DNA of 34,452 nt. Source: a virus. The DNA is taken from IMG/VR virus record IMGVR_UViG_3300002242_000758, positions 29,397 to 63,848 of that record, one strand, 5' to 3'. Positions 2,645 to 18,144 of this stretch are shown here, piece after piece; the stretch's first letter is position 1, and each line of letters starts with the position of its first letter. The translations under genes and the position numbers were made by a program. The notes below the pieces were generated by a model. The model worked only from the letters and a program-made list of their open reading frames with translations, ran no database searches and was not told the DNA's origin.

Positions 2645-4594
2645 ATGCTAGTAGTAGAAAACTCTATTCCAGAACCTAAGCTAGATTATATAGACTATAG
2701 TACGGAAAGTACTGATAGTTTAGTAAATAAGTATTTTAGCGATATTAATAGTCTAGATAGTTTGGTTCTAGATTTACAAGTTAAAAATCACGCTCTTAAT
2801 GAATTAGGTGCGTTATATAATAATATAAATGAAAAAGATGATGAGCATTTAAAACTGTATGTAGCTAGTGAGGCTATGGAATATGCTAGATTAGCAGGTG
2901 TTGCTAATGAGATTACTTATGGTAACGAAGGAGTTCTTGATTTTATTTATAAAATTATAACATCTATTTTTAAAGCTATAATGAGTCTTTTAAAAAAGAT
3001 AATAAGTTTTATAAAAAATATTTTTAATTATATCATGGGGTTTTTCGATAAAAGAGTAAGTAGTAGCTCTAGAGTAGAGAAAGAAAAAGAAAAAGTAGAA
3101 AAAGAATTTGATAAGTTAACTGATGATATCGTAGACATTGTAAATAGTAAAAAAGATCCAGGTACACCTTTATCAGATCAGTTTTTACAGGCACAAAAAG
3201 AGAAAATTAAAAAACTAGAAAAAGAGGTAGTAGAAAAAGCTAACAATTTAAAATATCTAAAGGTATTTGATATAGATGCTAAAGATGGTGTTATAGATGC
3301 GTCTAAAGTATTACTAGGATATAGATTTTATGTTAGTGGTGTAAACAGGTTATCTTCATTTATGAATAGAAAATACTCCTTTCTTTTAAATTTTATGCTT
3401 TTTGATTATGTTAAGAAGAATGATAATATTAATAAACCTATTAATATTATTTTAGTAGCTAAAAGATATATGGAGTATATAAAAGAGTATGATAAAGGCA
3501 TGCGGATACTTCTTAAAAATAATGCAACTAATAGAAAAGCGTTAAATGATGAAGATAGAAAAGAGTTTGAAAAAGCTAATAATAAAATGAACGATATCGT
3601 AAATACATTAGATAGCCCATATATAACAAGTTTTAGAACTCTCGTAACTCAGATATATAGAGAAGTATTTAGTATGGTAGAGGAACAATATGATAGAACA
3701 AAAACATATATAGATGTTGAGAATGTATCTGTTAAAGGGCCTAGTGCTATGCGTGGTTTAGGTCATTTAAATAAGTTCCTTAAAGATGCTAATTTTATGC
3801 TTATGGCTAGGGCTATAAGTGCTATCTTTAGAGAAGATATTCTTAAAGATTTACATATTTCTAAAAATGAAAATAGAGCTCTGTTAGGATCTGCTAATAA
3901 TAGAATATTTGCTATAGAAACTTTGGAATCAGATAGAAGAAAACTTAGAAAAATGGATAAAGAGTTAAAAGATGATATAACTAAACTAAAAGATATGATA
4001 GAAAGTAATAAAGTTAATATAGATACGTGTTTAATGGAAGCAGCTAAAATACTTGATAAAATGATTAAAGGCGGTTTACCAAAACTAACTAGTGCATCTA
4101 TAAGTGATTTATCTAGCGTCGATAAAATAGTTTTTAAAAGTGTATCTACAGATGATCTTGATCGGGTAGGTTATGATATAAAAGATGTTAGATCTAGATT
4201 AGCAGAAGTTAAATATAATTTTTTAAAACAATATGTATATCTATTAGAATTTAGTAAGAATACTAATTACGTAAAAGAAGACCTAAAACAAAAACAAAAA
4301 AGATTAGAACAGTATAAAAATGATCTTATTGATATGGAGAAAACCATTAAGAACGATCTAAAGGCTCTAAATGAAAATCATAGAGATATGGCTGGTAAAA
4401 TTATAGGTAAAATTCTATCTGCTGTCAATACAGCTACTACTGTTTACGCTAATAATGTTAAAGAATTGAGTAAAGTAGAAGTTATGTCAGTATTAGCATA
4501 TAGAGAGTCTAAATTTTATGCGTTAATTAAAGATATTTTAAATCTTTATAAAGAAAAATTACTTATAAGAGACATAACAAATTTAGGGCTATAA
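2645..4594 (+). CDS. Large internal-head-like protein (649 aa) with amphipathic segment
   Basis: The start follows AAGGAG (MLVVENSIPEPKLDY). The acidic N-terminal region of about 95 residues ends at a Gly-Asn-Glu (93-95). It is followed by a strongly amphipathic, Phe/Ile/Lys-rich stretch at about 98-136 (SLLKKIISFIKNIFNYIMGF). The remainder is highly charged and helical, with coiled-coil character at 140-200 and 440-600. The layout (acidic N-region, G-x-E, amphipathic helices, long helical body) matches the three downstream paralogs, although I cannot align the C-terminal body. I infer a distant member of the phiKZ-like internal head (inner body/ejection) group, with prohead-protease processing possible at the G-x-E. 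Identity as an internal head protein is inference from architecture and position. Confidence 0.8.
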   Translation: MLVVENSIPEPKLDYIDYSTESTDSLVNKYFSDINSLDSLVLDLQVKNHALNELGALYNNINEKDDEHLKLYVASEAMEYARLAGVANEITYGNEGVLDFIYKIITSIFKAIMSLLKKIISFIKNIFNYIMGFFDKRVSSSSRVEKEKEKVEKEFDKLTDDIVDIVNSKKDPGTPLSDQFLQAQKEKIKKLEKEVVEKANNLKYLKVFDIDAKDGVIDASKVLLGYRFYVSGVNRLSSFMNRKYSFLLNFMLFDYVKKNDNINKPINIILVAKRYMEYIKEYDKGMRILLKNNATNRKALNDEDRKEFEKANNKMNDIVNTLDSPYITSFRTLVTQIYREVFSMVEEQYDRTKTYIDVENVSVKGPSAMRGLGHLNKFLKDANFMLMARAISAIFREDILKDLHISKNENRALLGSANNRIFAIETLESDRRKLRKMDKELKDDITKLKDMIESNKVNIDTCLMEAAKILDKMIKGGLPKLTSASISDLSSVDKIVFKSVSTDDLDRVGYDIKDVRSRLAEVKYNFLKQYVYLLEFSKNTNYVKEDLKQKQKRLEQYKNDLIDMEKTIKNDLKALNENHRDMAGKIIGKILSAVNTATTVYANNVKELSKVEVMSVLAYRESKFYALIKDILNLYKEKLLIRDITNLGL

Positions 4595-4608
4595 TATATT
4601 AATATGAG
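4592..4608 (+). promoter_or_regulatory. Degenerate class A promoter (TNA-TATGAG) for the 4714 gene
   Basis: TAATATAT-TAA-TATGAG, with TATG at 4603-4606. It keeps the 3-nt spacer and TATGAG of class A but not the TATATTAC box. GATAGAT follows, as at 6242. A leader of about 105 nt precedes the gene. Confidence 0.5.
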
Positions 4609-4657
4609 ATAGATTAAAATAGCTAGATAGTTATGTACGATACCATACAGGTTCATC

Positions 4658-4674
4658 GTGTGCTAGAAGCGCAC
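4658..4674 (+). other. Leader hairpin upstream of the first internal-head paralog
   Basis: GTGTGC (4658-4663) pairs with GCGCAC (4669-4674) around loop TAGAA, with one G-U pair. It sits in the 5' leader between the promoter-like element at 4603 and the start at 4714. It may stabilise the transcript or tune translation; this is inference. Confidence 0.4.
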
Positions 4675-4713
4675 ATTAAATTTAAATCTAAAAAACACAT
4701 AAAGGAAGGTAAA

Positions 4714-6159
4714 ATGAGTTTTAAAATAGATTTAGGACTTAAAAAAGATCAGCCAGCTCATGTTGAAAATATCGATATGGGCGTAGCTATTGAGGAAATG
4801 TATCGAGCTGAGTATGCACTAAAAGAGTGTGAAGTAGAAGAAGCTATTTTAACTTCAGCTGTAGAAAACCTACAAAGAGGTATTGAGTTCTCTAAAGCTG
4901 TAGTAGAAAAAACACAAGACGAAAGTTTGGCTATTGTAGTTGGTAAAGAAGCATTAGCTTCATCTCTTAGAATCATAGGACAAGAAGAAGTATTAGAAGG
5001 CGTAACTGCTGGAACAGAGTCTTATGAAGCTGGAATTGAAGCTAACGAAAACATACTTACAACTATGATAAAAACACTTAAAAAATATGTTAAGAAAGCT
5101 TGGGAATTTTTAGTAAATCTAGTAAGTAAAGTTGTTGACTATATTAAAGGCCTTTTTGGACAAAAAGGTTATGCTGCAGCTAAACTACAAAAAATTCTGG
5201 ATAAAGCTAAAGAAGAAGGTAAGACTAAACTATCTAAAGATAAATTTGATGAAGAAGTAGCTGTGAAATTGGCTAGCAATAACATAGGTGTAATTGAAGC
5301 AGCTGGTGGAGCACTTAGCGTAAAATCACTTCAAGGACAAATAAAAGAAATATCTGACTTTTTTGATAAGCGTGGATCTATCTTAGCTAGTTTAAAACTT
5401 CTAGATAAATCTGTATTTGATGCTGCATCAAAACTAGGTAAAGATAGCAATATGGAACAAATTAGAAAAGCTATATCACTTATGCCTGTAGTTTCAGTTG
5501 TTTCAAAAGAGGCTGAAGGTATTTTTCCTGATGGACTTAATAAAAATATAATCGAAGCAGTTAAGAAAGAACTAGGTGGAGATGTTAAAAGAATCCATGC
5601 AAAAGGATATATAGCAAGTGGTAAAGTAATCTTAGTTCCAGTAAAATATTATGATGGAAGCGAAGATGTTGTACAAAAATTGTATGATAATAACCTTAAA
5701 GGCGCCGATGCACTAAAAGCATTTAAAGAAGCAGTAGCTGGTGTAAAATCTAAAATAGTAGTTATTAAACCAGAAACTAAAGATGCTGAAAAATATGCTG
5801 ATAAAATAAAACCATTAAACTTTAATGAAGCTACTTCATTAGTTAAAGAGGTCGATAGTATTACAAGTACTATGGAAAAATATACAAAAGATTTTAAAGC
5901 TGATGTTGAAAATGCTAAAAATAGAATACTTAATAGCATTGACGCTGTAGAAAAAGAAATGGCTAAACAATCAGAAGAAGATGAAATCAAAAGTCTGGTA
6001 GCTAAAACATTAAAAGATTACTTAAAAATCGTAGACAGCGTTGCTAGAGCAGAAGTTAAAGCTACTGTAGAAGCGACTAAAAATATTGTTAAACCTTCAT
6101 GGGGCGATTATGTTATTGAATCTGCTAAACTATACGAAGGTGAGGGTACTAAAAAATAA
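4714..6159 (+). CDS. Internal head protein paralog 1 (phiKZ-like inner body type, 481 aa)
   Basis: I place the start at ATG 4714 (AAGGAAGG, then MSFKIDLGLKK) and not at the in-frame ATG 4633: the two downstream paralogs begin with the same MxxKIDLGL block, and 4633 has no Shine-Dalgarno. Shared N-terminal landmarks are AIEEM (25-29), LQRGIEFSK (53-61), EALASSLRIIGQE (79-91) and SYEAGIEAN (103-111). Next come amphipathic helices (about 118-146, KKAWEFLVNLVSKVVDYIKG), a mixed central domain with a short beta-rich part (about 285-330), and a conserved C-terminus, KPSWGDYVIESAKLYEG. Proteins of this type in phiKZ-like phages fill the proteinaceous inner body of the head and are trimmed by the prohead protease. 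G-I-E at 107-109 is a candidate cleavage site. The gene has its own promoter-like element, long leader and terminator. Confidence 0.88.
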   Translation: MSFKIDLGLKKDQPAHVENIDMGVAIEEMYRAEYALKECEVEEAILTSAVENLQRGIEFSKAVVEKTQDESLAIVVGKEALASSLRIIGQEEVLEGVTAGTESYEAGIEANENILTTMIKTLKKYVKKAWEFLVNLVSKVVDYIKGLFGQKGYAAAKLQKILDKAKEEGKTKLSKDKFDEEVAVKLASNNIGVIEAAGGALSVKSLQGQIKEISDFFDKRGSILASLKLLDKSVFDAASKLGKDSNMEQIRKAISLMPVVSVVSKEAEGIFPDGLNKNIIEAVKKELGGDVKRIHAKGYIASGKVILVPVKYYDGSEDVVQKLYDNNLKGADALKAFKEAVAGVKSKIVVIKPETKDAEKYADKIKPLNFNEATSLVKEVDSITSTMEKYTKDFKADVENAKNRILNSIDAVEKEMAKQSEEDEIKSLVAKTLKDYLKIVDSVARAEVKATVEATKNIVKPSWGDYVIESAKLYEGEGTKK

Positions 6160-6222
6160 AAAAGGAAGAAAAATAATAGTGTAGGCATGGGTCTAACCCA
6201 CGCCTATACCTTCCTTTTTTAT
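6156..6222 (+). terminator. Terminator after internal-head paralog 1
   Basis: The inner stem TAGGCATGGGT/ACCCACGCCTA has loop CTA. It is flanked by an outer pairing of AAAAAAGGAAG with CTTCCTTTTTT, which also supplies the T-run. It lies wholly downstream of or overlapping the stop, and resembles the hairpin at 8020-8045. Confidence 0.75.
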
Positions 6223-6226
6223 TATT

Positions 6227-6243
6227 TAAGATATTTATATGAG
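6227..6243 (+). promoter_or_regulatory. Degenerate class A promoter for the 6362 gene
   Basis: TAAGATAT-TTA-TATGAG, with TATG at 6238-6241, follows directly after the previous terminator. GATAGATAG follows, as in the 4603 copy. The leader of about 120 nt contains a hairpin, GATACT-TT-AGTATC, at 6258-6271. Confidence 0.5.
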
Positions 6244-6361
6244 ATAGATAGGACACCGATACTTTAGTATCAGTTTATTAATTTTAGATGGGCTACTCTT
6301 ATTGTAATAGATGCTAGAACTTTAATGTAATTTTATTATATAAATCAAAAGGGGTAATATA

Positions 6362-7816
6362 ATGGGTATTAAAATCGATCTTGGGTTAAAACAAAAGAGA
6401 CAAGATATGGAAAAAGATCATGGAGATCCTATAGTAGCTCTCGAAGCATTACTTAATGTTAAGAACGAATTAAAGACTTATGAGTTGGAATATGATGCTT
6501 TGAACGCTGCTATAGAAAGTCTTCAAAAGGGTATTGAGTTCTCTAGGGTAGTGGCTGAAAAATCCAATGATAAATCTTTACATATAGCGGCAGGTAAAGA
6601 AGCGTTAGCGTCTTCCCTAAGAATCATTGGACAAGAGAATATAGTAAAAGATGTAACTGCTGGAGCGGAGTCATATGAAGCTGGTCTAGAGGCAAATAAA
6701 AATATTCTAGACAAAATGATAGAAAAAAGTAAAGAGCTCGCTAAAAAAACAAGAGAGAAGACCGCCTTACTACTTAAAAAAACCAGTATTTTTATAAAAG
6801 ATACTATAGGCGGTGGTACTGAAGCTGCTAAAAAGATTAAGTTTTTACTGAGTGAGGCAAAAAAGGAAAAAAGAGTTAATTTAAAGACAGATAGATTTAA
6901 CGATAAAACTGCAGTTAAGCTTATAAATACTATTAAATTATTGGCATATCTTAAAGGAAATAAAGGTGTTGCTGCCAAAGATTTAGAAAAGTTAGTAGAA
7001 GAGCTAAGTAAGAGAATCTTAGAAATGAGTAATATTAAAGAAATAATACAACCAATTAGCACATTTAAAGATAAAGCAGAAAAACTTATTTCGTCTATTA
7101 GTGATGATATAACCATTACTGATATAGTAAAAATTTTAAATTTAAAAGAAAACGTTATGGTCCCTCTTGAAGAAAATAAGGTAGAAATAGTAGATAAGGT
7201 AGATGGGGACTTAGAGAAATATATTAAAAATGTACAACCAACTGATATCAAGAGTGGTAAGTGTAAAATTATATATTATAATGGGGATAGTATTGTTCTT
7301 TATTATATATATGTAAAAAATAGTTATGTGATTAGGGCATTAAAAGATAACGGATTGAAAGGCCTTGAGGCAGTTAAAACTGTTAAAGATTTTTTAAATA
7401 ATCTATATTATTTAACTTATCCTTTTCACCCTAAATTAGAGTTTGTTGAAGCCTATGCTAATAAATTAAAACCTGTACCATATAAAAATGTAGCTGCCAT
7501 AGCTGATAAATTAGAAAAAATTGCTAATAAAGTTCCGACAGCTATAAAAGATATTGAGAAAAAATATAATAGTAGTATGGAAAGCATAGGTGATGCCGTA
7601 ATAGATATACGTGATAGATTGAATAATAAAATAAAGTCTGGAGAAGGATTAAGTGAACTAGAAATTGAAACTTATGAACTTTTAAGACTTTATCACGGGT
7701 TTATTAGTTTTGATATAGCTAGAAGATTAGATGCGGAAATAGATGTATTTAGAGATGCTATAAAACCTAAATGGACCAAAATTATAGAAGAGTCTATAAA
7801 ACTATATGAAAAATAA
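6362..7816 (+). CDS. Internal head protein paralog 2 (484 aa)
   Basis: It starts MGIKIDLGLKQKRQ after AAAGGGG. It aligns over its N-terminal 115 residues with paralog 1: VALEALL (25-31), LQKGIEFSR (54-62), a near-identical GKEALASSLRIIGQE (78-92) and SYEAGLEAN (104-112). The helical segment after this (about 113-150) is more Lys-rich and less hydrophobic than in paralogs 1 and 3 (KKTREKTALLLKKTSIFIKD). The central domain has diverged. The C-terminus KPKWTKIIEESIKLYEK keeps the family signature. It likely packs inside the capsid with its paralogs, with possible protease trimming after G-L-E (108-110). Its N-terminus is closest to paralog 1, so the copies arose by tandem duplication. The role is from family resemblance, not tested. 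Confidence 0.87.
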   Translation: MGIKIDLGLKQKRQDMEKDHGDPIVALEALLNVKNELKTYELEYDALNAAIESLQKGIEFSRVVAEKSNDKSLHIAAGKEALASSLRIIGQENIVKDVTAGAESYEAGLEANKNILDKMIEKSKELAKKTREKTALLLKKTSIFIKDTIGGGTEAAKKIKFLLSEAKKEKRVNLKTDRFNDKTAVKLINTIKLLAYLKGNKGVAAKDLEKLVEELSKRILEMSNIKEIIQPISTFKDKAEKLISSISDDITITDIVKILNLKENVMVPLEENKVEIVDKVDGDLEKYIKNVQPTDIKSGKCKIIYYNGDSIVLYYIYVKNSYVIRALKDNGLKGLEAVKTVKDFLNNLYYLTYPFHPKLEFVEAYANKLKPVPYKNVAAIADKLEKIANKVPTAIKDIEKKYNSSMESIGDAVIDIRDRLNNKIKSGEGLSELEIETYELLRLYHGFISFDIARRLDAEIDVFRDAIKPKWTKIIEESIKLYEK

Positions 7817-7819
7817 AAC

Positions 7820-7860
7820 TATAGGTATGGTTTTAACCATACCTATAACTTTCTTCTCTT
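7820..7860 (+). terminator. Terminator after internal-head paralog 2
   Basis: A perfect 13-bp stem TATAGGTATGGTT/AACCATACCTATA (7820-7847) with a 2-nt loop is followed by a pyrimidine-rich TTTCTTCTCTTT. The stop at 7814-7816 is just outside the stem. Confidence 0.7.
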
Positions 7861-7868
7861 TATTGATT

Positions 7869-7885
7869 TAAGAAATTAATATGAA
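7869..7885 (+). promoter_or_regulatory. Orphan degenerate class A promoter before a gene remnant
   Basis: TAAGAAAT-TAA-TATGAA, with TATG at 7880-7883. The context after the terminator (TTTATT, then ATTTAAGA) matches that of the 6227 promoter. It now abuts a 3' gene fragment with no start codon, as if the body of a paralog had been deleted. Confidence 0.4.
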
Positions 7886-8008
7886 GCGATTTTAATCCCA
7901 GAAGGAGAGCTTAGATTACTTAAAGAAACAGTTAAACCAGCATGGGAGGATTATATAATTGAATCTGTTAAACTTTATGAAAAAGAAGGCGGAGAGAAAA
8001 AAGAATAA
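7880..8008 (+). pseudogene. Remnant of a fourth internal-head paralog (3' end only)
   Basis: The frame from 7880 encodes 42 residues ending at TAA 8006-8008. It has no start codon and is preceded in frame by TAA 7877-7879. The peptide runs GELRLLKETVKPAWEDYIIE and continues SVKLYEKEGG, matching the C-terminal signature of the neighbours (paralog 1: KPSWGDYVIESAKLYEG). Both the coding end and the following hairpin resemble the 3' end of paralog 1 at DNA level. The simplest reading is a deletion that fused the promoter region of a fourth gene to its last 40 codons. It could instead be a duplicated 3' end left by unequal recombination. Confidence 0.8.
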
Positions 8009-8019
8009 CAAAATAATAA

Positions 8020-8060
8020 TAGGCGTGGGTTCATTCCCATGCCTATATTCTTTCTTATTG
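8020..8060 (+). terminator. Terminator retained by the paralog remnant
   Basis: TAGGCGTGGG pairs with CCCATGCCTA (8020-8045, one G-T pair, loop TTCATT) and is followed by TATTCTTTCTTATT. It is homologous to the inner stem at 6183-6207, with changes on both arms. Confidence 0.65.
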
Positions 8061-8087
8061 TTTCATATCTATCTTATCCAACGTATT

Positions 8088-8100
8088 AAATTGAAAAAAA
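8088..8100 (+). promoter_or_regulatory. Class B motif before internal-head paralog 3
   Basis: TTAAATTGAAAAAAACAG, with TTGAAA at 8091-8096, lies after the remnant's terminator and about 15 nt before AAAGGA. Unlike the other head paralogs, this gene lacks the TNA-TATGAG element; a nearby TATATG lacks the spacer and upstream box. Confidence 0.45.
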
Positions 8101-8121
8101 CAGTATATGAAAGGACATGTA

Positions 8122-9600
8122 ATGTTTAAAATTAACCTAGATATAAAACCTAATCTACCAGTATATATGGAGAGTGATGGTGATATAGAAGCATTTGAAG
8201 AAATGTGTAATGCCGAGAACGACTTAAGAAGTCACGAATTAAAACAAGCGTTAGTTACTTCTGCTATAGAGTATTTAAGTCATGGTTTAGAATTTTCTAA
8301 GGATTTAGTAGATAATAGTCGCGATGAAGAGTTAGGATTAGAGATTACTAAAAGTACCTTGAAATCTACATCTAAGTTATTAGGGCAGAATGCAGATATT
8401 GATAAAATAGCCGATAGTATTAAAAATTATGAAGTTGGAGTAGAGGCTAGTGATAATGTTTTAAAAAAATTATTGGCTAAAACAAAAGAATTGATAAAAA
8501 AAGCATGGGATTTTTTAGTAAATTTAGCTAAAAAAGTTGTAGTATTTTTAAAGAATTTTATAGGTACTAAAGATACTGCTACTAAAATTAAGAAAGAATA
8601 TGATGAAGCTAAAGCTAAAGGTTTTAAAAAACCTTCAGAAGTTAAGTTCAGCGTTTTAGAAGCAGAAAATGCCATTCAGCCTCTTTCCCTCTTGATGAGA
8701 TTAAAAGACACTGATGGTATTAATGCTTCTGACATAGAAAAAATAGTAATAGATAGTGCAGAAAGAGTAGCTGAATTTAACGGTGGTGAAGAATTTATAA
8801 AACCATTAAATAACTTTCAAAAGGTAGAAAGTAATTTTTTAAAAAATATTGATGAAAACGCTACTTTAAGAGACATATTTAAACTTTTAGATTATGAAAA
8901 AGAGTTGCTTAAAGTACCACTAAAAAAAGGAATATATTTTTTAGATAAACTTCCGGAAAAACTTAAAGAAATCATTATAGAATCATCACAAGCACATATA
9001 GCTGGTGGATTAGGTAGGATCATTTTTAAAGTAGTTTATAACGATGGAGGTGGAGTGGGATTATTATCCACATCAGATCTTGGAGGTGCCGTTATTACTG
9101 AACAAGATTTAGATAATATAAAGGGAACTAAGGCATTTATATATGCCGAGCATTATTTTAAAAGTTTAGATGTATCTTTTTATTACGGTACTCCTATGTT
9201 CAAATCACTTCAAGAAGACGCAAAATTGATAAGCAAATATGCAAAATACATAAAACCTATACCGTTAGATAAAATTAACTCAATAAGAAAAGATTTAGAA
9301 CAGCTAGTAGAACAGACTAAGAAAAATTCACAAATTTTACAATCTAAAATTGAAAAAGCCGATGAAAAAGTAAAAAATATGCTCGCTATTCTAGATGAGA
9401 AGTCAAAAATATATGAAAAAAATGCTTTTTCCGATGTAAATTTACCTAAGCATATAAATGGATTGAAAATTGAGTACTGTAAATATTTAGAATCTCGAGC
9501 AGGAGCGGGGTTAAAAGCGGAACTTAAGTTTTTAAAAGCTTTAGTTAAACCTCCATATGAAAAATATATCTTAGAATCTTTAAAGCTATATGAAAAATAA
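8122..9600 (+). CDS. Internal head protein paralog 3 (492 aa)
   Basis: I place the start at ATG 8122 (AAAGGA, then MFKINLDIKPN), which matches the paralogs' N-termini, and not at 8107. It shares IEAFEEM (22-28), YLSHGLEFSKDLV (51-63) and NYEVGVEAS (102-110) with the other copies. The amphipathic stretch KKAWDFLVNLAKKVVVFLKN (about 127-146) is very like that of paralog 1. The middle contains a Gly-rich beta segment (AHIAGGLGRIIFKVVYNDGG, about 293-312). The C-terminus is KPPYEKYILESLKLYEK. It is a probable inner-head protein with candidate prohead-protease cleavage after G-V-E (106-108). It is the most diverged of the three and uses a different upstream element (class B). Confidence 0.87.
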   Translation: MFKINLDIKPNLPVYMESDGDIEAFEEMCNAENDLRSHELKQALVTSAIEYLSHGLEFSKDLVDNSRDEELGLEITKSTLKSTSKLLGQNADIDKIADSIKNYEVGVEASDNVLKKLLAKTKELIKKAWDFLVNLAKKVVVFLKNFIGTKDTATKIKKEYDEAKAKGFKKPSEVKFSVLEAENAIQPLSLLMRLKDTDGINASDIEKIVIDSAERVAEFNGGEEFIKPLNNFQKVESNFLKNIDENATLRDIFKLLDYEKELLKVPLKKGIYFLDKLPEKLKEIIIESSQAHIAGGLGRIIFKVVYNDGGGVGLLSTSDLGGAVITEQDLDNIKGTKAFIYAEHYFKSLDVSFYYGTPMFKSLQEDAKLISKYAKYIKPIPLDKINSIRKDLEQLVEQTKKNSQILQSKIEKADEKVKNMLAILDEKSKIYEKNAFSDVNLPKHINGLKIEYCKYLESRAGAGLKAELKFLKALVKPPYEKYILESLKLYEK

Positions 9601-9684: not shown

Positions 9685-10269
9685 ATGGTAAATATAAGAT
9701 TTATGACTAAAGACGATAACCCTAAGAGAGATATGTCTGTTTTTGATTTTAAGACTTTATTTAAAGGGTATACACAACCACCTAGTATAGTAGAGAGTTT
9801 AGAAATACTAGATAAGTTTAAGAAGGATTTAATAGAAGATGGTATATTAGAATCGGATATGACTATGGGCGATGTTATACATGCTGTAGTAGATAGAGCT
9901 AGACGTTTGAAAGATAGATCATCTAGTTCTATGCTAGATAGCGATATATTTTATGGTTTTAATGCGTTAGCTTTATATATAAATTTCCTAAATACTTATC
10001 CTAGATTTGATATAAGTAGAGACACAATTAATTCTGGTCTATTTGATAATTTAAATAGGTGGACTTATGATTGTAATTTATCAGATGATGTAGATTTAGC
10101 ATATATTGGATATAGTAAGATAGAATTAAATAAAAAACTAAATGAAAATGCGGCTAAGTTAGATTTAACAACAACTATAGCATATATTTATAGCTATCTA
10201 GGATATCCGGTCGCATTATACTTTATTTTTATTCTAACAAATTTAATGAAGGAAGAAGATGATAACTAG
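9685..10269 (+). CDS. Unrecognised 194-aa protein heading the virion gene block
   Basis: It begins MVNIRFMTKDDNPKRDM after AAAGGATG. It is mostly helical; the Tyr/Leu-rich C-terminal segment (about residues 160-188, ending YPVALYFIFILTNLMKEEDD) is hydrophobic and could be a buried or membrane-facing helix. It overlaps the next gene by 11 nt, which suggests translational coupling and a shared complex. It is the first of six genes between terminators at 9609 and 15271 that look like tail or baseplate components. I recognise no family. Confidence 0.78.
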   Translation: MVNIRFMTKDDNPKRDMSVFDFKTLFKGYTQPPSIVESLEILDKFKKDLIEDGILESDMTMGDVIHAVVDRARRLKDRSSSSMLDSDIFYGFNALALYINFLNTYPRFDISRDTINSGLFDNLNRWTYDCNLSDDVDLAYIGYSKIELNKKLNENAAKLDLTTTIAYIYSYLGYPVALYFIFILTNLMKEEDDN

Positions 10270-11629
10270 ACTTATTATGTTGGAGGCTACTGATTATACA
10301 GTAGACCTCCCAATAGTACAAGATATAGTTAAGGATTTTAAAAAAGAGGTCTTTAGGGATAAGGATGATAATTTAGATGTATATATTTACCAAGATGGGG
10401 AGACTTATGATAACGAAACATATACTAATGAGATAGGTAGGCATAAATTACTCGTTAGTTATAGTTGTGAAGAAGGTGAGACTTTATCTTATTATCCTAG
10501 CATATATAAAGCTAAAGATAAAATTATTTTAAAAGACAAACAAACTGGTTTTACTATAAGACCTATAACAACTCCTACAGATATGACAATAAATTTTACA
10601 TATAAAAATAAATCTAAAGTTGTTATGCAAAAAATAGTTAATAGACTCAAAAATCTATATAAGTTTACAGGTTATCGTTTTTCACACAGACTTTCTTATA
10701 AATATCTTTTCCCAAAACCTCTTATTGATCTTATAGAACATATAGCGAAACTTCTAAATAAAGATATATATAAATTCATAGAAGAATCCGCAGTAGTTAA
10801 ATTCGATTATGCTGTTAAAAGAGGTTCTAATTATAAAGTTCCAAGTTTTAGAGGTGTTCAAGGTGGAATTATAGGTAATTTTTTGGAAGAAGGTAATAAG
10901 ATAAAAATAGGCACTGATGACATATATTATACTATAGACTTTTCTTATATTATAACGTTCGATAAACCGACGGCATTAGCAGTTCATTATCCTATTTTAG
11001 TTAATAATAAACCATTAGACAAAAAATGGTTACCAAAACAAGAAATAGCTGCAGGTAGGGATAAAGCTACAGGTAAATTTGACGTAAGTAGGATTATATC
11101 TGATAAATTTAATTTTGGTACTTTATTTACAGATATACTTATAAGAGTACCTACCTATGATCAATTTACACCATTTCATAGTGATAATGGTTCTAAAATA
11201 ATGTTATTGTCTATATTAATAAATTTAGAAGAAGATAAAAAAGATATTCTCTTAAATATAAATGATTTAAAACGTATAGGACTTCCGGATGAAATAGTAG
11301 AATATTTATTAGAAACAAATGAAAAAGATCTATTTACATTTACACAGTCATTATTTTATATAGAGCTTTATGAAAATAACTATATAAAAGATAAGGAAAT
11401 GTATAAAGATACTGAAGGTAATATTAGAACAGAGATACCTTTAGACTTAACAAAGACCTATCATTTACTATTTAATGTGGTAATGAATAAAAAATTATTA
11501 GCATATTGTAAACCGGAAGGAAATAGTAGAATAACTAAAGATGAAAGACTTATGGAATTTATGGGTATTAATTTTAACGATGATAGATTTGCCTTAGTTA
11601 TTAAAGATAAAAATGTAACTGGCTATTAG
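10259..11629 (+). CDS. Probable virion/baseplate protein (456 aa)
   Basis: ATG 10259 overlaps the end of the preceding gene and uses AAGGA within it. A later in-frame ATG (MLEATDYTVDLP) has no Shine-Dalgarno. The N-terminal half is beta-rich with many Tyr/Asp residues. The middle (about 230-265) reads DFSYIITFDKPTALAVHYPI. The C-terminal half has LINLEEDKKDILLNINDLKR, then a beta-rich end. No enzyme motif or membrane helix is visible. Size, composition and position in a block with the hub-like gene at 13623 point to a structural tail or baseplate part, but no specific homolog is recognised. Confidence 0.8.
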   Translation: MITRLIMLEATDYTVDLPIVQDIVKDFKKEVFRDKDDNLDVYIYQDGETYDNETYTNEIGRHKLLVSYSCEEGETLSYYPSIYKAKDKIILKDKQTGFTIRPITTPTDMTINFTYKNKSKVVMQKIVNRLKNLYKFTGYRFSHRLSYKYLFPKPLIDLIEHIAKLLNKDIYKFIEESAVVKFDYAVKRGSNYKVPSFRGVQGGIIGNFLEEGNKIKIGTDDIYYTIDFSYIITFDKPTALAVHYPILVNNKPLDKKWLPKQEIAAGRDKATGKFDVSRIISDKFNFGTLFTDILIRVPTYDQFTPFHSDNGSKIMLLSILINLEEDKKDILLNINDLKRIGLPDEIVEYLLETNEKDLFTFTQSLFYIELYENNYIKDKEMYKDTEGNIRTEIPLDLTKTYHLLFNVVMNKKLLAYCKPEGNSRITKDERLMEFMGINFNDDRFALVIKDKNVTGY

Positions 11630-12999: not shown

Positions 13000-13614
13000 A
13001 TGCAATATAGGGTTCCTACATTTAATAGAGTAACTATACCAAATATTCTTTCAGATTTACATAATAAAAAGATTACAGTAGTAGTGCCACAGGCAGCTAT
13101 ATATTCAGATGCAGAATTAACTGTTCAAAATGAACCAACATTATTTATGGACAATGCCCCAGTAAAGAATAAACGTAGTATGGGTAATGAAGTTACATAT
13201 ACTGGCATAATTGATAATATAGTAAATGATGAACTAAAAGAGGCTTCTAGACTTAATAAAATAAAAGTAAGATTGCCATTATCTACAGTCATAGATCTTT
13301 TTCATAAACAGTATTCTATCTATGTACCTAAAGCAGATAATGATTTAAAAAAGTTAATAGAATATATGGATGATATTCTTTATAGATTAGAAAATAGTTC
13401 TGATAAAAGAGCACCCGAACTATTTGAGTATATAGATGAGTTCTATAATACCGTTCTTAAGAATCAAAAAGAGGCTATTGTTAGGAAATTTACTACATTT
13501 GATAATGCGCCTAAGGGAGCTAAACCTATAGCCGGTTTTAGTAAAGGCCTTCTAGAAGAACGGGATGTTAATGCTGCTACTTTTATAGATTTAGATAGTG
13601 TTATTGTTAAATAG
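13000..13614 (+). CDS. Unrecognised 204-aa protein in the virion block
   Basis: It begins MQYRVPTFNRVTIPNILSD after AAAGGAG. An N-terminal beta-rich part (about 1-75) is followed by KVRLPLSTVIDLFHKQYSIY, an acidic helical part (about 110-155), and a C-terminal segment with KGAKPIAGFSKGLLEERDVN. The next gene follows after 8 nt with its Shine-Dalgarno partly in this gene's stop (TAGGAG). This tight coupling suggests the product works with the hub-like protein, but no family is recognised. Confidence 0.78.
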   Translation: MQYRVPTFNRVTIPNILSDLHNKKITVVVPQAAIYSDAELTVQNEPTLFMDNAPVKNKRSMGNEVTYTGIIDNIVNDELKEASRLNKIKVRLPLSTVIDLFHKQYSIYVPKADNDLKKLIEYMDDILYRLENSSDKRAPELFEYIDEFYNTVLKNQKEAIVRKFTTFDNAPKGAKPIAGFSKGLLEERDVNAATFIDLDSVIVK

Positions 13615-17467: not shown

Positions 17468-17484
17468 GATATGACTTATATGAT
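17468..17484 (+). promoter_or_regulatory. Class A promoter before the SSB-like gene
   Basis: GATATGAC-TTA-TATGAT, with TATG at 17479-17482. It matches TATATTAC at 6 of 8 positions and keeps the 3-nt TNA spacer. The start is 27 nt downstream. Confidence 0.5.
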
Positions 17485-17508: not shown

Positions 17509-18144
17509 ATGAATGTAAACATAATGTTGAGTAGAGCAGTACTGTATAGAGAGCTTAATGATGATAAGTTGCATATGCTAAAATTCGGAGTCTATAAGAA
17601 TATGTTAAGACTATATGTTAGTGAGGCTAGTAAAAATAATATAAGGGATAATAAATTATTATTCACTATGCCTATACCCACTATCGATGCTAGAGTAGTT
17701 TTAAACACATTAGAGACTCTTAATGAGCAGAAAGAAGGGTTTAATATAGCATATTCTCTATTTGGTAAAAAGTTTGTAGACAACCAACCGGTTCCTAATG
17801 AAAAAGAATTGATGGGTGTTATAGGTTTAGCTAGAGTAAAAAATAAAGATGACAGTATAGTGAATATCGTCTATATAACTACTCCTCTTGAAACTAAATA
17901 TGTTTTCCCATTATTGCCAACCCCGTATATAGAGATAATCAAAAACGGGGAACTGGTTAAAGATAAAACAGAACTAAGTCGTATATGGTCAAAGGCATAC
18001 GCAGATAATTTTAAAGCTATCCTAGATAATTTCCCAGAGGCTAAAATTACTGAACCAAAAACATATAATAATAATTATAGGCAATCAAAACCGAATGCCA
18101 AACCAAAACCTTTGTCTGCCGATGACATTTTAGATGAGCTATAG
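17509..18144 (+). CDS. SSB-like protein (211 aa) with flexible linker and acidic tip
   Basis: It begins MNVNIMLSRAVLYRELNDDK after AAAGGATG. A compact beta-containing domain spans about 1-180. It is followed by a low-complexity Asn/Pro/Lys/Gln linker (KTYNNNYRQSKPNAKPKPLS) and a short acidic end, ADDILDEL. A folded domain, flexible linker and acidic C-terminal tip is the layout of bacterial SSB and T7 gp2.5-type proteins, in which the tip recruits replication partners. I cannot confirm an OB fold by eye. It lies next to the nuclease gene and has its own class A promoter and strong terminator, as expected for an abundant protein. Alternative: an unrelated protein with a disordered tail. Confidence 0.82.
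   Translation: MNVNIMLSRAVLYRELNDDKLHMLKFGVYKNMLRLYVSEASKNNIRDNKLLFTMPIPTIDARVVLNTLETLNEQKEGFNIAYSLFGKKFVDNQPVPNEKELMGVIGLARVKNKDDSIVNIVYITTPLETKYVFPLLPTPYIEIIKNGELVKDKTELSRIWSKAYADNFKAILDNFPEAKITEPKTYNNNYRQSKPNAKPKPLSADDILDEL

Follow-up and report, generated by a model that had tools for sequence, protein, structure and literature searches.

The internal head protein family of phiKZ, PF12699, includes gp93, gp94, gp95, gp162 and gp163 of phiKZ as well as gp53 and gp54 of SPN3US. Each phage carries 2 to 7 internal-head paralogs (PMC5694885). The copy-number plasticity of the family was known earlier from between-phage counts; gene stubs make the step of loss itself visible. The stub described here, a snapshot of copy-number change in the inner-body family of a jumbo phage, is a minor and ordinary addition to this published plasticity (PMC5694885). 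It resembles the internal-deletion remnants of tandem gene families, in which the promoter and terminator sides are kept, the body is missing and the frame is untranslated, and nothing in it is categorically different from such remnants. The late promoter motif of phiKZ is TATG, with transcription starting at the G, and the motif by itself is insufficient as a promoter (PMC4666361).

The internal-head block of the record

The window, i.e., the whole 34,452-nucleotide stretch of DNA analysed here, comprises bases 29397-63848 of a virus record of 73,283 bases in total, and the G+C content of the record is 29%. The record encodes a phiKZ-type major capsid protein, tail tube and sheath, a divergent DNA polymerase, a DnaB-like helicase and a split RNA polymerase; some of these phiKZ-type genes are located outside the window. 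The record is that of a phiKZ-like jumbo phage. The genes that concern us are listed below.

2645-4594, plus strand: P0, 649 aa, a distant relative of the internal-head family situated 5' of the tandem array (PF12699 phiKZ_IP at E = 9e-4, which does not reach the curated cut-off; weak family-profile match; a P0-like gene occupies the same place in the relative L014)
4714-6159, plus strand: P1, intact internal-head-type paralog with the family start MSFKIDLGLK at 4714 (PF12699, E = 4e-6; alignment)
6362-7816, plus strand: P2, intact paralog (alignment and family profile)
8122-9600, plus strand: P3, intact paralog with the family start MFKINLDIK at 8122 (alignment and family profile)
10259-11629, plus strand: phiKZ gp98-like gene (phrog_3289), which bounds the array

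The array at 2645-9600 is flanked by gp89/gp90-like genes on one side and by the gp98-like gene on the other, and gene-order comparison places it at the position of phiKZ gp92-97. This head-block position between the homologs of gp88-90 and gp98 is found in the same order in phiKZ, Eowyn, and the relatives L014, L015, L022 and L043. Like the PF12699 family, the array lies between the tube/gp89/gp90 side and gp98, and consists of tandem paralogs in variable number. P1 and 6 of 10 homologs also match the family, albeit weakly: P1 reaches 26.7 bits, just under the curated cut-off of 27, and the six homologs have E-values of 0.01 or lower (best 2e-7), while P2 and P3 show no match to PF12699 at 0.001. 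Comparison of the family profile with phiKZ gp93-95 and SPN3US-type proteins by hhalign gave a probability of 72% and E = 3.5e-5 over 76 columns only. The label “internal head protein” for P1-P3 is therefore drawn from weak profile evidence combined with strong gene order. Jointly with the duplication and deletion account discussed below, the identity of the array as the block of internal-head (inner-body) proteins in a phiKZ-like jumbo phage is probable.

In contrast to the described PF12699 members, the paralogs of the window are far diverged in sequence and possess their own C-terminal signature, [KR]PxWGDxxxESxxLYE. Among themselves, P1, P2 and P3 are ~30% identical in protein. The signature is present in P1-P3 and, with variation, in the homologs of nine relatives; it is common to all intact members and is retained by both of the stubs discussed in the following sections. 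It offers a concrete target for asking how inner-body proteins pack into the head.

A startless stub between P2 and P3

The first-pass annotation of this DNA described a 42-codon frame without a start between the second and third paralogs, encoding the C-terminal signature of the family and followed by a homologous terminator. Both observations are borne out. The stub and the elements around it and its neighbours are as follows.

4596-4613, plus strand: promoter-like element ATATTAATATGAGATAGA upstream of P1; TATGAGATAGA is also found upstream of P2 and of the single L014 homolog
6182-6206, plus strand: terminator hairpin after P1 (found on the minus strand)
6224-6243, plus strand: promoter-like element upstream of P2, ATTTAAGATATTTATATGAG
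7820-7847, plus strand: terminator hairpin after P2 (hairpin search)
7866-7885, plus strand: promoter-like sequence immediately upstream of the stub; TATG occupies 7880-7883 (17/20 against the P2 promoter context)
7880-8008, plus strand: stub, a frame of 42 codons that lacks a start and encodes the C-terminal signature of the family; homology is clear from ~7901
8019-8046, plus strand: stub terminator hairpin (alignment to the P1 terminator)
8091-8095, plus strand: TTGAA, candidate separate promoter of P3

The frame at 7880-8008 translates to YEAILIPEGELRLLKETVKPAWEDYIIESVKLYEKEGGEKKE followed by a stop codon and contains no ATG, GTG or TTG start. It ends in KPAWEDYIIESVKLYE and a short tail, which is the family signature. 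A C-terminal HMM trained on 11 intact homologs, with the stub left out, matches it at E = 8e-10 (39.7 bits), and the family profile run over the whole 73-kb record recovers it at E = 1.1e-7. At the DNA level, 7899-8060 can be aligned without interruption to the 3' end of P1 and the terminator behind it, extending from ~7901 through the stop codon into the hairpin, with a score of 113 against 47 for the best of 500 shuffles. The same segment aligns more weakly with P2 (score 57, best shuffle 43) and P3 (score 64, best shuffle 48). An extension past LYEK is present in P1 and the stub, with no counterpart in P2, P3 or the single gene of L014; by this feature the stub is nearest to P1, although the eight residues ahead of its core fit P3 without gaps. 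The start of homology is separated from the P2 terminator by ~50 bases, of which 7880-7900 could be coding sequence of the deleted gene or junction sequence. Homologous to part of an intact paralog, devoid of a usable start and lacking the body of the gene, the stub is a remnant.

Within a core of 17 codons, the stub retains all nine family-conserved columns (9/9), and its bases depart from those of P1 at 9 of 51 positions. A stub branch evolving neutrally would keep all nine residues with a probability of 0.09 if it had undergone four changes, of 0.05 with five and of 0.008 with nine; this test on 17 codons is borderline if only half of the changes fell on the stub branch. The retention of the conserved residues while other positions changed suggests that the stub was coding for part of its life. 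Its translation is now unlikely, owing to the missing start codon. Folding of the stub stretch reveals nothing beyond the terminator hairpin (z = -2.0 for the whole stretch), and no RNA family match was found in the window.

The similarity to the P1 terminator amounts to 64 for P2, 56 for the stub and 47 for another intergenic region of the record; because of the last value, terminator similarity taken alone is weaker evidence than it appears. On the upstream side, the first-pass annotation had likened 7869-7885 to the promoter context between the first two paralogs. The resemblance holds, since ATTTAAGAAATTAATATGAA at 7866-7885 agrees with the sequence before P2 in 17 of 20 bases (0.09 matches expected by chance), but the site is only promoter-like: scored with the strong promoter matrix of the record, it gives -0.7 and ranks 439th, against 3.9 for P1 and 4.7 for P2. 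The TATG at 7880-7883 is a common motif. In view of the poor score against the strong class, promoter activity of this sequence is only likely.

Relatives and stubs in other arrays

Relatives were gathered with an alignment of the tail tube protein, which gave 80 virus contigs; L001-L004, which are fragments of the record that contains the window, were left out. With P1, P3 or the gp98-like protein as single queries, viral contigs yielded no relatives, nor did they with the C-terminal DNA pattern; annotated phages yielded none with P3 or with the array DNA, and a scan with the gp98 alignment returned the same contigs and nothing further. Two distant loci were obtained from a scan of genome contigs.

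The nearest relative found is L014, with 73% tail-tube identity. It carries one P1-like gene in place of the three genes and stub of the window, followed immediately by a 176-aa gene and then the gp98 homolog; this gene is the only family member in its 155-kb record, and there is no stub at the locus. In the tree, P1-P3 form one group next to L014 (86/96), within which P2 and P3 are sisters (97/96), and grouping of P1 with L014 is rejected (p = 0.023). The single L014 gene and the tree uniting P1-P3 point to an expansion followed by formation of the stub, and the expansion is most likely specific to the lineage of the window. Intact family members are present in all close relatives. Among the relatives, none was found with the expanded array or with an intact fourth gene, nor did any have at the stub position a short gene that is intact and keeps a conserved start, which the first-pass annotation had named as the finding that would contradict a remnant.

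A second stub occupies a comparable place in L020, which is more distant than L014: it lies between the last full-length paralog and the gene that follows, of 194 aa. Its 5' piece, MTDFAKDVC and a stop codon, represents nine N-terminal codons and matches the start of the neighbouring gene, MVDFARDVLGV. Its 3' piece, MGINLEKYINESVKLYKVE and a stop codon, represents 19 C-terminal codons and matches the end of the neighbour, LEKYVNESVKLYKSE; the two pieces are out of frame with each other, and the stub ends with a terminator-like hairpin. The alignment scores are 57 against a shuffled maximum of 33 for the N-terminal piece and 70 against 43 for the C-terminal piece. The L020 stub arose independently of the stub in the window. 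We also note that the L020 stub, at 17560-17730 in reverse-complement coordinates, holds a possible 19-aa frame with its own ATG after AAGAGG.

Within-locus comparison of 100 array stretches, among them the window, five annotated phages and some near-duplicates, identified only two C-terminal stubs with strong support, those of the window and L020; the arrays of the five annotated phages contain no startless stub. The proposal of the first-pass annotation that the array expands and shrinks agrees with the one gene of L014, the three genes and stub here, and the independent stub of L020. Two further candidates were set aside. The N-terminal piece MAKLFALEE in L054 was not counted, as a long antisense frame follows and the locus looks like an interrupted gene; this frame (array 4624-7563) lies inside an apparent internal-head gene, has repeated zinc-ribbon-like motifs and a nuclease-like end, and was read by eye as a homing-endonuclease-like gene. 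The L102 candidate looks instead like a gene of intact length with frame breaks (array 4420-5790, internal-head-like); the apparent frame shifts near its 3' end are either decay or sequencing error.

Origin of the stub and promoter classes

The account we consider probable is that, after tandem duplication in this lineage, an internal deletion stripped a fourth copy, X, of its start and most of its body. One ancestral gene would have been duplicated in tandem to yield P1, P2, P3 and X, the last between P2 and P3. A single internal deletion would then have removed the start and most of the body of X, and placed the promoter-like sequence that follows the P2 terminator next to the final ~36 codons of X, with X's own terminator behind them. 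The resulting stub would not be translated from a standard start and would give at most a short transcript of ~165 nt ending at the hairpin. An internal deletion accounts for the retention of the promoter-like side and of the 3' end with its terminator, and for the parallel in L020, where a stub with both gene ends out of frame is what such a deletion predicts. The deletion of a gene body put forward by the first-pass annotation is in line with these observations, while the full-length stage of X is something we infer, as the search for relatives yielded no intact fourth gene.

Alternatively, the stub may have been born truncated, by a tandem duplication with a breakpoint within the 3' end of P1, so that the stub is a novel joint and a full fourth gene never existed. 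In one variant, duplication of the block from the 3' end of P1 through P2 would produce P1, P2, the stub and a copy of P2 (= P3) in one step, and the closeness of the stub to P1 together with the sister relation of P2 and P3 is the order predicted by such a duplication. However, P3 would then be expected to follow the stub terminator with a P2-type promoter and leader, and a TTGAA element is found instead. The C-terminal core matches between P2 and P3 in only 34 of 51 bases, against 42 of 51 between the stub and P1, and a fragment evolving neutrally since P2 and P3 diverged is unlikely to have retained the frame and all conserved residues. Partial duplication also leaves the L020 stub, with both gene ends, unexplained. 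We regard a truncated birth as unlikely. A collapse of two paralog copies, or a chimera at 7870-7900, is a concern for a metagenome contig at a paralog array, but the stub sequence is distinct from P1, P2 and P3, and assembly confusion is unlikely between paralogs of such low protein identity; we consider an artefact extremely improbable.

It is quite improbable that selection maintains the stub as a functional short gene or RNA, e.g., as a decoy, a transcription spacer or a peptide carrying the C-terminal signature. The conservation of the signature residues and the L020 C-terminal piece, which could encode a 19-residue peptide from its own ATG, favour this possibility. Against it are the startless frame in the window, the lack of folding beyond the hairpin, the absence of a stub from L014, the nearest relative, and the occurrence of a C-terminal stub, besides that of the window, in one of ~100 array stretches that are not all independent. 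The broader idea that inner-body arrays recurrently yield promoter-terminator stubs whose signature or short transcript still acts, e.g., as a packaging-tag peptide, for which L020 offers a 19-residue reading frame, is highly improbable.

Several promoter-like motifs were observed in the course of the analysis. TATGAGATAGA occurs at 4596-4613 and 6231-6248 of the window and at 5837-5847 of L014, upstream of P1, P2 and the single L014 homolog with leaders of ~100 bases, and is a candidate conserved promoter or leader of these genes. TTGAA with A/T-rich sequence is found record-wide on the sense strand ~19-40 bases before the starts of 16 of 62 genes, against 3.7 expected (e.g., at 8091 and 9658 of the window). 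The genes it precedes are often structural, and the motif is a candidate late promoter distinct from the TATG of phiKZ. The strong promoter class TATATNACTWATATGAG is located at 17478, 18201, 20894, 22590, 26730 and 32206 of the window and at 13609 and 63947 of the record, mostly ~30-44 bases before gene starts; these eight sites score 22-29 bits, followed by a sharp drop. This class probably marks early genes, including an RNA polymerase gene and a helicase.
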